From: Burkholderiaceae bacterium
GTDB lineage: Bacteria; Pseudomonadota; Gammaproteobacteria; Burkholderiales; Burkholderiaceae_C
DNA length: 64,000 nt
NCBI GenBank assembly: GCA_018780645.1
Contig: JADMJJ010000047.1
Location: forward strand, 62,001-126,000
Reading direction: 5' to 3'
Below, one piece after another: positions 20,443-43,410 of this stretch. Position 1 is the first letter of the stretch, and every line of letters starts with the position of its first letter. Under the pieces are notes generated by a model. It saw only the letters and a program-made list of their open reading frames with translations. It was not told where the DNA came from and searched no databases. Position numbers and translations under genes: made by a program.

Positions 20443-20472
20443 AATGCCCCCGCCAGCCCTCACCGGCTGGCA

Positions 20473-20632
20473 GCGTTCTCAGGGCGGGGTGAAATTCCCC
20501 ACCGGCGGTAGCTGCGGGATTCGTCCCGCGGGAGCCCGCGAGCGCCCGGCGGCCGCGTCAAACCGGCCATCGGGGTCAGCAGATCTGGTGCGATTCCAGG
20601 GCCGACGGTCACAGTCCGGATGAAAGAGAAAC
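20473..20632 (+). promoter_or_regulatory. FMN (RFN) riboswitch
   Basis: TTCTCAGGGCGGGGTGAAATTCCCCACCGGCGGTA ... GGTCAGCAGATCTGGTGCGATTCCAGGGCCGACGGTCACAGTCCGGATGAAAGAGAA, all hallmark RFN segments. Confidence 0.96.
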
Positions 20633-20738
20633 GCGAGTACCTCGGCTGCTGCATGCCTGGCTCAAATTCGAGTCAGGTGTGTGGCGGCTGCGTTGTCGCG
20701 CGCCCTGATTCTGACAATCCTGACCTTCAAGGAATCTC

Positions 20739-34981: not shown

Positions 34982-37900
34982 TCACCCGCACTGCCCCACA
35001 TACCCGCAGGCGGTGCAGAACTCGCAGCCGTCCTTGTGGATGACGGTGTGGTTGCCGCACTCCGGGCAGGGCGAGCCGGCCATGGGTGCGGGTTGGGCGC
35101 CGGGTTTGGCGCTGCGGTGGGACGGGTTCTCCAGCACGCCCATTTCGCGCAGCGGGAAGCCCTGCTCGTCGAGCACGCCCAGCATGGCGTAGCGGTGGAT
35201 GATCAGCCGCGCGACATAGGCCACGGTCGAGGGCCAGACCTGCTGGCGGCGCTCGCCTGGCACCGGGGCCATGAAGTGGCCCAGCGGTTCGCCGACATTG
35301 AGCATCTTGCGCAGCTTCATGCCGATCCAGCCCGGATCGACGACACGCATGTCCAGTGACAGCAGCCGCGCCAGCCCGTCGTAGGCGCGCGGGTAGTTGC
35401 CGGAGAAGCCCAGGGCGCAGGGCCGGGTGTTGCCCCCCACCTCCTGGCCCGGCAGGCTGACCTCCTTCAGGGTCAGGGTGAAGGCCTCGCTGGTGGCCGG
35501 GTTCTCGATATCGACCGCCCAGGCCAGCGTGCCCGAGGGGCCGGTGCGCGGCTCATCGCGGCTGAACATCGCGTCCAGCACCGGCGTCGGGCCGGTCTGC
35601 GCCCACACCCCCAGCTGCTCGCAGCGCCAGCGGATCACTGCCGCCGTGGCGGCCACCACGCCGGGGAACAGGCGGCGCTCGCCGTGCGGCGGGAAGGGCA
35701 TGTCGAACGAGCGCTCCTCGGCCACGGTGGTCAGGGCGTCGAGCTTGAGCTTGAGCCATTGCGCGTCATTGGCGCGCATGTCCATCGACAGGGTTTTGGC
35801 CAGGGCCGCCAGGCCGCGCGGCTGCTCCGCGCCATTGACCCAGACCTCGAACGGCAGGGTCGCGCCGAACAGGCCCATGCCCGGGCCCTCGGCCGGCAAC
35901 TCGCCGACGAACAGCGCGAACTCGCCATGCGGGTGCTGGATCATGAAGCTCCAGGCCGGATTGCCGCCCGACAGATCGGGCCGGCTGGGCCAGCGCAGCG
36001 AGGCCAGCACCGGTGCGGCGGGCAGGCGCTCCAGGCGCAGACGCTGGTTGGTGCCATCGGTGGGCAGCAGCGGTTGCGGTGTGACCTTGGGCGCGCTGTC
36101 CACGCTCAGCACCGAACCGAGGATGCTGTTAGGCCGGTAGGTGGCCAGCCCCTTCAGGCCGGAGCGCCAGGCGTGCAGGTACAGGTCCTGGAAGTCTTCG
36201 TAGGGGTAGTCGGCCGGCACATTGACGGTCTTGGAGATCGAGGTGTCGACGCAGGGCGCAACCGCGGCAACCATGCTCTCGTGCGCGTGGGCGCTGAGCT
36301 CCAGCGCGGTGACGAAGGCCGGCGTCAGCGGCGTGTCCTTGCCCTTCAGATGACGATACAGCCGCCAGGCATGGTCCTCGACCGCGTACTCCTTGTAGCT
36401 GCCATCGGCCATGCGCTTCTTGCGCGTATAGCTCCAGCTGAACGGCGGCTCGATGCCATTGCTGGCATTGTCGGCAAAGGCCAGGCTGATGGTGCCGGTG
36501 GGTGCGATCGACAGCAGATGCGAGTTGCGCAGGCCGCCGGTGCGGATGCGCTCCTTCAGCGCGCCGGGCAGGCGCGAGGCGAAGTTGCCGCGGCTCATAT
36601 ACATGTCGGCATTGAACAGCGGGAAGGGGCCACGCTCCTTGGCCAGATCGACCGAGGCGCCATAGGCGGCGTCGCGCATCACCTCGCTGATGTGGCGGGC
36701 CATCGCGCGGGCAGCGTCGCTGTCGTAGTGCAGATTGAGCATGATCAGCGCGTCACCGAGGCCGGTGAAGCCCAGGCCAACGCGGCGCTTGTTGGCCGCC
36801 TCCTGCTGCTGCTGCGGCAGCGGCCAGACGGTGACGTCGAGCACGTTGTCCAGCATCCGCGTGGCCACGGCGCAGACCTCGGCAAAGGCGGCGTCGTTGA
36901 AGCGGGCATCGGCCTCGAAGGCCCGTTCCACGAAGAAGGTGAGATCGACGCTGCCGAGGCAGCAGCAGCCGTAGGGCGGCAAGGGTTGCTCGGCGCAATT
37001 GTGTACGTACAGACCGTTGGCATCGAAGGCATGCACATGCTCGACGGTCACGTCATACACCGCCTCCACGGCCTCGGCCTGCAGGCTTTGAACGGTGGCC
37101 ACAAAGCGCTCGCGGTTGAGTTCGCGTCGATAGTTGGACAGCACCTCGCTAAGCCGCGTCTGCTTGCTACTGTCCTCGAAGCCCACCCCGTCGGCAAAGC
37201 GCTGCAGGTTCTCGCCGCTGATCACCAGTTCATGCGTGGCCTGCTGCGGATACTCGCGCTGGCTGCCGTGGCCATCGGACAGCAGGCTCAGCCCGGCTGG
37301 GCGGCGCTGCTGGTAGATCGTCGAGGCAATGCCCAGGCGCAGCAGCATGCGCTGGGCCGAGCGCAGGGTGTCGAGGTCGGCCTGGGAAAGGCGCACGCTG
37401 ACGCCCTTGTCCTGGCTGCCCTGCACCGAGCCATCGGCATCGAACAAGCCACGCAGCAGGCCACGGCTGAAGTCCGACGAGGCGCGCTCCATCAACGGTG
37501 TGATCTTCTTGTGGCCTGGCGCTGCGCCCAATGACAAGGCCAGGTCGCGCAAGGGTGCTGAGGCCAGCCGGTACTCGCCACGCGAGGCGATCGGCCGTTG
37601 CCAGCCCTTGAAATCGGCGCGATGCGTCAAGGTCTGAGCGGCACTTTCTGCCGCAGCCATGATGGCGCTGACGCTGGCCGGGCGCAGGCCCAGATCACTG
37701 CCCACGGCCTTGAGCTCCGGCGCCCAGACCGACAGAACGGCCTTGTCGGCCTTGAGCGTGCCATCGCCGATCAGCAGGCCCATCAGATAGCCCTCGGCCT
37801 CGGTGTGCGCGCCTTCCCATCCCGGCAGCGCGCGATGATCGTGCAGCAGCAACTCATCGCCGGGCTGCAACTCGCCGGCCTTGACCCAGGCGCTCTCCAC

Positions 37901-39031
37901 CAGATAGCGGGTCTTGCGCGTGACCTTGCGCACCGGATGATCGGCCGTCAGGCGCAGGGTCTGGCCCTGCTCCAGAGTGAGCTTGAAGACGGGCTTGTGA
38001 CCGGTGAAGAAGAACCCCTCGGACTCGGTGGCATAGGCCTTGCCATCGACCACCGCCGTGAAACGATGGCCGATCAGCTCATGCACCTGACGCGCACCAT
38101 CGGCGGTCATCACCCAGGTATCGGCCGTCACACAGGGATTCGTCGCCGTGATCGTCTCGCAATAGCTGAGGTTGTTGTCCTTGTTGATGCGGTCCAGGAA
38201 CAGCACACCGGGTTCGGCATGGTCATAGGTGGAGCGCATGATCTGGTCCCACAGCTCGCGGGCCTGCAGCTTGCGGTAGACCCACTGGCCGTCGCCGCGC
38301 TGGTAGGCGCCGTCGGCCTTGGCCTTGACGCCGGGCTCGGCGCGGTGCAGCAGTTCGAAGTCGGCGTCGGCCTGCACGGCCTGCATGAAGTCGTCGGTCA
38401 CGCCGACCGAGATGTTGAAATTCTTCAGGTCGCCCTGGTCCTTGGCGTGGATGAATTCCTCGATGTCCGGATGGTCGCAGCGCAGCACGCCCATCTGTGC
38501 GCCGCGGCGCGAGCCGGCCGACTCCACCGTCTCGCAGGAGCGATCGAATACCCGCATATAGCTGACCGGGCCCGAGGCGCTGCTCTGGGTGCTGCCCACC
38601 CAGGCGCCGCGCGGGCGGATGCGAGAGAAGTCGTAGCCGACACCACCGCCGCGGCGCATCGTCTCGGCGGCCTCGGTCAGGGCGGTGTAGATGCCGGGGT
38701 GGCCGTCCTCGAACTGGGCGATCGAGTCGCCCACCGGCTGCACAAAGCAGTTGATCAGGGTGGCCGACAGATCGGTGCCGGCGGCGGAGTTGATGCGTCC
38801 GGCCGGGATGAAGCCACGGCGCTGGGCGTCCAGGAACTTCGCCTCCCACAGCGCACGCTGCTCGGGCGCCTCGGCCACGGCCAGGGCACGGGCCACGCGC
38901 AGGCGCACGGCATCCAGATGCTGCTCATCGCCCTTGGCGTACTTTTCCAGCAACACCTCGCCGCTGATGGTCTGCGGCGGCAGGCTGGAGGCGTCGACGG
39001 CGAGGCCGGGACGGGTGGCGGATTCACTCAT
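34982..39031 (-). CDS. nrdJ: Adenosylcobalamin-dependent (class II) ribonucleoside-diphosphate reductase, intein-containing precursor
   Basis: [25 protein letters not shown]...[39 protein letters not shown]-terminal zinc-ribbon-like [28 protein letters not shown]. Confidence 0.95.
36998..38134 (-). other. In-frame intein (379 aa) with LAGLIDADG homing endonuclease domain
   Basis: Starts [22 protein letters not shown] (block A), [11 protein letters not shown] (block B), [13 protein letters not shown] and [13 protein letters not shown] (LAGLIDADG motifs), ends [20 protein letters not shown] followed by Cys+1. Confidence 0.95.
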
Positions 39032-39633: not shown

Positions 39634-39702
39634 ATGCCGAACTCGAATGCCCTGAATGCCGTCGCCGCGCGCCGCTCCATGCCGCCTCGTGACCCCTCAT
39701 GA
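39634..39702 (+). CDS. Possible 22-aa micro-ORF, candidate truncated paralog of the 73-aa ORF
   Basis: MPNSNALNAVAARRSMPPRDPS*; preceded by ACGGAGCG and by a duplicate of the upstream module of the 73-aa ORF. Confidence 0.3.
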   Translation: MPNSNALNAVAARRSMPPRDPS

Positions 39703-39788
39703 GCACCGCCGCCCTGCCCCTGTTCGGCGCCGCGGCTCTGCCCCGATATGATCCGCAGCACAGCAAGAACAAGATTGGAGCCACGCCC

Positions 39789-40547
39789 ATGACCGAGCCT
39801 CTCAGCCCGGCAACCCTGCTGGTGGTGGATGACGAACCCGAGCTGCGCGAGCTGCTCAGCGAGTACTTCACCCGCCATGGCTTCGTGGTGCAAACCGCCG
39901 CCGACGCCGCCCAGGCCCGCAGCCTGGTGGCGATGGGCCGCCCCGACCTGGCCCTGCTCGACGTCAATATGCCCGGCGAAAACGGCCTGTCGCTGGCACG
40001 CTGGCTGCGCGAGGCCCACCCGGGCACCGGCCTGGTGATGCTGACCACGGCCGGTGAGTCGGTGGACCGCATCGTCGGCCTGGAGCTGGGCGCGGACGAC
40101 TACATGCCCAAGCCCTTCGAGATGCGCGAGTTGCTGGCGCGGGTGCGGGCGGTGCTGCGCCGCCTGCAGACGGCACGCCCGGTGGTCGCCGCACCGGCCG
40201 CCGAGCCCGTGGCCCAGGGTGGCAATGCCAAGCGCATTCAGTTCGGCGCCTGCTGGCTGGACCTGGACGAGCGCCGCCTGACCGGTGCCGATGGCGAGGT
40301 GATCGACATCACCGCCGCCGAGTTCGACCTGCTGGCCCTGTTCGCCCGCCACCCCAACCGCCCGCTCAACCGCGACCAGATCATGGAGCAGGCGCACAAC
40401 CGCGGCTGGGACGTGTTCGACCGCTCGATCGATCTGCGCATCATGCGTTTGCGCCGCAAGATCGAACGCAACCCCGACAAGCCCGAGCTGATCAAGACCG
40501 TGCGCAATGTGGGCTATGTATTCGTGCCGGGCGGCGGCGCGATCTGA
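39789..40547 (+). CDS. OmpR-family response regulator
   Basis: LLVVDDEPELRELLSEYFTRHGF, GADDYMPKPFEMRELLARVRAVLRR, Trans_reg_C domain. Confidence 0.94.
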   Translation: MTEPLSPATLLVVDDEPELRELLSEYFTRHGFVVQTAADAAQARSLVAMGRPDLALLDVNMPGENGLSLARWLREAHPGTGLVMLTTAGESVDRIVGLELGADDYMPKPFEMRELLARVRAVLRRLQTARPVVAAPAAEPVAQGGNAKRIQFGACWLDLDERRLTGADGEVIDITAAEFDLLALFARHPNRPLNRDQIMEQAHNRGWDVFDRSIDLRIMRLRRKIERNPDKPELIKTVRNVGYVFVPGGGAI

Positions 40548-40560
40548 GCAAGGCCAGGGC

Positions 40561-43406
<2,846 letters not shown>

Positions 43407-43410
<4 letters not shown>

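Follow-up and report, generated by a model that had tools for sequence, protein, structure and literature searches.

A putatively mobile LAGLIDADG intein directly before the predicted catalytic cysteine of a class II ribonucleotide reductase: a new bacterial host for a known intein allele

The nrdJ gene of a Burkholderiaceae bacterium, on the minus strand of the 64,000-nucleotide stretch of DNA analysed here (the window), encodes a class II ribonucleotide reductase (RNR) that is interrupted immediately before its predicted catalytic cysteine. From its sequence and a structural model we read the interrupting element as a full-length LAGLIDADG intein of class 1 (Cys1, Asn-terminal, Cys+1) that is mobile, and we give this reading a probability of about 0.93. 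The intein is ordinary of its kind, being a new host record for a known and widespread RNR intein allele. The gene and its parts are as follows.

34982 to 39031, minus strand: nrdJ precursor gene, 1,349 aa, class II (adenosylcobalamin-dependent) RNR with intein; TIGR02504 NrdJ_Z, 6.7e-170
38135 to 39031, minus strand: N-extein, 299 aa; Cys95 aligned to Cys134 of Thermotoga maritima NrdJ (1xje)
36998 to 38134, minus strand: intein, 379 aa, Cys1 to His378-Asn379
38096 to 38134, minus strand: splicing block with nucleophile Cys1; C1, W7, T10 and G13 invariant in 42 sequences
37937 to 37948, minus strand: splicing block B, T63-A-D-H66; T63 and H66 invariant
37760 to 37789, minus strand: first LAGLIDADG motif, residues 116-125, with Asp124; G123, D124 and G125 nearly invariant; model helix 112-124
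37430 to 37459, minus strand: second LAGLIDADG motif, residues 226-235; LAGLIDADG_3 match over residues 221-318; model helix 220-234
36998 to 37060, minus strand: splicing blocks F and G, residues 359-379; His378 penultimate, Asn379 terminal; TIGR01443
36995 to 36997, minus strand: +1 Cys of the C-extein, predicted thiyl-radical Cys, equivalent to Cys322 of T. maritima NrdJ
34985 to 36994, minus strand: rest of the C-extein, with barrel remainder, duplicated module of about 120 aa and Cys-rich C-terminal end

The intein occupies residues 300-678 of the precursor (1,137 bases), and NrdJ without it is 970 aa long. The splice junctions read TNP|C1...HN379|C+1, the N-extein ending TITATNP. In both Pfam and NCBIfam the class II barrel is split by two domains, one LAGLIDADG and one for intein splicing, with Pfam matches to Ribonuc_red_lgC (3.4e-124), LAGLIDADG_3 (1.2e-22) and Intein_splicing (3.5e-12) and with NCBIfam intein_Cterm (TIGR01443) and TIGR02504 both above cut-off. 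An assembly artefact or chimeric contig has a negligible probability and was ruled out, as the frame is open throughout all 1,349 codons and an independent, complete single-contig assembly from the same genus has the same nrdJ-intein arrangement at 96% identity. That genome, G001, is one of three in our same-genus comparison; G000 and G001 carry the intein and G002 does not.

In alignment to the solved structure of T. maritima NrdJ (1xje), the +1 Cys pairs with Cys322, and the 12th C-extein residue, also a Cys, pairs with Cys333. Cys322 is the established thiyl-radical Cys of that enzyme, and Cys134 and Cys333 are its redox pair. The marks of class II membership are therefore all present: the barrel, a thiyl Cys within N-x-C-x-E (C322 equivalent) and two redox Cys (C134 and C333 equivalents). 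The initial annotation had placed an intein at 36998-38134 before the catalytic Cys of a class II RNR; its coordinates were exact to the base, the strand, which it had left unstated, is minus, and its equation of the +1 Cys with the Cys of the N-x-C-x-E motif agrees with the alignment. The intein interrupts the NrdJ finger loop immediately before what is predicted to be the catalytic Cys. Because of that position, the unspliced precursor would lack an intact active-site loop and could hardly be an active RNR. Beyond the barrel, at about 34985-36079 of the window (minus strand), a module of about 120 aa is duplicated, the copies being 32% identical, and is followed by the Cys-rich C terminus. 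The module has no Pfam match and is apparently missing from some relatives in the family, whose alignments stop near query residue 990.

The residues expected of a class 1 intein (C1, T63, H66, H378, N379 and C+1) are all present, and C1, W7, T63, H66, D361 and N379 are invariant in an alignment of 42 relatives. Both LAGLIDADG motifs have nearly invariant columns in those relatives, are helical in the model and carry acidic catalytic residues, so that the earlier description of a full-size endonuclease with both motifs intact stands. Pfam scores the second repeat only. An AlphaFold2 model built from the 42-relative alignment had a mean pLDDT of 92.3 and a pTM of 0.91. When the model was compared with the PDB by Foldseek, the best 16 matches were TliVMA, PI-SceI, PhoVMA, PI-PfuI and another intein endonuclease, the four named scoring E values of 3.5e-18 to 2e-14 at a probability of 1.00. 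The fold search was decisive, as a sequence-only search for Hint-domain relatives in the PDB gave weak matches. The confident model thus predicts a Hint splicing domain joined to a LAGLIDADG endonuclease. The solved PI-SceI, TliVMA and PI-PfuI share that architecture but reside in other host proteins at other sites and are only 14-16% identical to the window intein. The Pfam splicing model found no other intein in the genome.

How the intein would leave NrdJ can be proposed from these residues. After translation it would excise itself, starting with an N-S shift at Cys1 and passing through transesterification to Cys+1, cyclisation of Asn379 with the help of His378, and an S-N shift. Splicing would restore N-P-C-A-E and with it the catalytic Cys, the RNR being inactive until then. 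Alternatively, the intein might be dead for splicing and nrdJ non-functional in the window strain, a state tolerated since NrdAB supplies dNTPs. Indeed, nrdA in this genome is intact and free of inteins (active site SSNLCTE uninterrupted), with nrdB adjoining, and NrdJ is therefore unlikely to be essential in air. The splicing residues are all in place, however, and dN/dS of the C-extein was very low for G000 (0.011/0.2626 with G001 and 0.0072/0.2049 with G002), and thus selection still acts on the enzyme beyond the intein. Moreover, a search of the genome for a class III nrdD found none. NrdJ therefore is probably the only RNR of the cell that is usable without oxygen, as class biochemistry would have it. 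We consider a splicing-dead intein very improbable. The initial annotation had warned that a second intact RNR would make the allele dispensable; the intact nrdA and nrdB bear this out in part, although no nrdD was detected.

Perhaps the intein is instead a regulator, and conditional splicing (redox-controlled, for example, as Cys1 and Cys+1 are both thiols) gates the sole oxygen-independent RNR. The insertion position should leave the enzyme dead before splicing, which along with the lack of a detected nrdD would suit such a gate, and in Aquifex an intein that separates the metal ligands of R2 improves the loading of that host RNR subunit with iron (PMC8772380). Close relatives, within the genus and elsewhere, manage without the intein, however, and no sequence feature marks a switch. 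Regulation is thus improbable, and marginally more so is the particular version in which oxidation of Cys1 or Cys+1 restrains splicing as long as air is present and NrdAB is sufficient, and a reducing environment lifts the restraint.

How the intein may spread is suggested by its distribution. The endonuclease domain of the proposed mobile intein would cut, at the NP|C codons, those nrdJ alleles that lack the element, and repair of the cut allele would copy the intein in. The insertion site may persist because the stretch is among the most conserved in the gene and only precise loss is tolerated. The initial annotation had suggested comparison with intein-minus alleles, and the nrdJ of G002 proved to be the same gene exactly 379 codons (1,137 bases) shorter, a precise and scar-free empty site. 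Twenty further empty alleles were compared. Among 401 family genomes, 64 match the intein, about 40 of them with close copies and ten with full-length copies only about 30% identical to that in the window (both counted from the table). Occupied and empty nrdJ alleles occur together in ten Burkholderiaceae-type genera, and one such pair is 95-96% identical in flanking DNA. Whereas the window intein is a single case that adds one more host to a well-populated allele, these genera could allow close relatives to be used to measure homing and loss, and what an intein at a catalytic residue costs in fitness.

Presence and absence of the intein require 15 changes on a 65-tip extein tree, a count that alone does not separate gain from loss and that is not a rate, as the sample was picked to include genus-matched empty alleles. 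Relatedness judged by nrdA did not separate gain from loss either, at about 95% in both pairs that include G000 and 94% between G001 and G002. Intein and extein trees of 41 betaproteobacterial-group loci reject each other (AU p values of 9e-5 and 1e-78). Among near relatives the extein is better conserved than the intein (identity of about 0.80 versus 0.70). Between phyla the order is reversed, the intein being better conserved than the host protein, at 0.56 versus 0.37 in an Anaerolineae metagenome-assembled genome (MAG), 0.57 versus 0.37 and 0.56 versus 0.34 in Methanophagales archaea, and 0.47 versus 0.24 in a Vogelbacteria MAG, which fits transfer of the intein between hosts that had already diverged. 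The empty site of G002, the 15 changes, the tree conflict and the long-range conservation together argue that the intein is a mobile element. Five close pairs, compared in 100-base windows, showed no co-conversion tract next to the site, and for the window strain itself we therefore only infer homing, with no sign that it was recent. As for sources, a viral origin close by was rejected, with no relative in viral contigs and phage copies only about 25% identical, and a plasmid source was rejected likewise, with plasmid relatives of the intein only distant.

A search for NrdJ inteins at the same site, also suggested at the outset, found more than 70 loci with the insertion at exactly the NP|C codon boundary, in hosts as far apart as Burkholderiales and Methanophagales archaea, along with a published allele. 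Every complete locus examined inserts at NP|C, with inteins of 137 aa (L058) to 401 aa (L069). The shorter forms include L085 (318 aa), L057 (280 aa) and L058, a mini-intein without endonuclease. The last (L058:4488-4898) comes from one Methanophagales archaeon, and another has a form of 307 aa at that site (L056:4925-5845); both are about 57% identical to the window copy, and together they form a series of endonuclease loss in close relatives. In a Roseateles MAG (L030:5001-6140) both LAGLIDADG motifs are damaged (LLIGSGTL and GIFDAYGS) and the splicing residues kept; cutting activity is therefore not universal among the relatives. We note a second intein lineage, about 30% identical, at the same NP|C site in nrdJ of the same family (L080, L081, L082 and L083). 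It ends VTGQ|C, with a terminal Gln and penultimate Gly rather than His-Asn, conserved in four genera, and in genus g32 some members carry the one lineage and some the other. Thus one site is used by two inteins.

These damaged or shortened endonucleases (L030, L085, L057 and L058), along with the lack of a co-conversion tract, might mean that the window intein still splices and is no longer active in homing, being inherited vertically with nrdJ, its endonuclease retained by chance or because folding needs it. The window copy has both LAGLIDADG motifs intact, however, and dN was low relative to dS between G000 and G001, both for the intein (0.0263/0.3741) and for its endonuclease part (0.0217/0.3725), which indicates strong purifying selection on each. 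Moreover, the incongruent trees and the patchy distribution inside ten genera are at odds with vertical inheritance. An inactive endonuclease is thus unlikely, and the mobile intein remains our preferred reading.

The published allele is rir1-b, in the nomenclature of the Gogarten group. A 2014 survey gives rir1-b members in Halobacteria (15), Bacteria (55) and other Euryarchaeota (5), with hosts including Acidovorax, Delftia, Polaromonas sp. JS666, Desulfovibrio magneticus and Bacillus subtilis (PMC4071816). Like the window intein, rir1-b resides in the RNR large chain, and the host groups overlap, but the window's host species is probably absent from the list. We tentatively assign the window intein to the rir1-b type, a name that rests on shared hosts and not on comparison of junction residues with those in the survey. 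Among the listed hosts that could be read here (Solidesulfovibrio magneticus, Polaromonas and SPbeta), the insertion site is the same as in the window. S. magneticus, Polaromonas, Paracidovorax and the SPbeta copies have the site as NP|C or NL|C. The initial annotation had counted host range and active-site position among its reasons for characterising the intein, but the data do not support either as unusual, since the site is the usual one of a very widespread catalogued allele, probably rir1-b, already listed from Acidovorax, Delftia and Polaromonas. Inteins inserted at catalytic sites are a common pattern in general (PMC5874633).

Two individual inteins invite comparison. That of Azotobacter chroococcum NrdJ (Achr_580, residues 321-690, LAGLIDADG_3) is absent from the A. 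vinelandii orthologue, and its describers also place it in a few beta- and gammaproteobacteria (PMC4465626). By description it resembles the window intein in class II host, position and size, but it belongs to a different genus. The bnrdE intein of SPbeta/phi3T phage likewise lies directly before the homologous active-site Cys (KVKFSNL|CVTGET...TGN|CSEV), but its host is a class Ib NrdE, it is about 25% identical to the window intein, and its penultimate residue is Gly, not His.

GC3 is slightly lower in the intein than in the extein (0.82 versus 0.91) and dS is higher; both separate arrival and relaxed codon choice would account for this. An Rfam search of the window found no cobalamin riboswitch upstream of nrdJ; its only match was an FMN riboswitch at 20471-20636 (plus strand, 99.9 bits). 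Divergent from nrdJ, at 39699-43410 on the plus strand, lie genes for an OmpR-type response regulator and then a large PAS/histidine kinase that itself includes a receiver domain.
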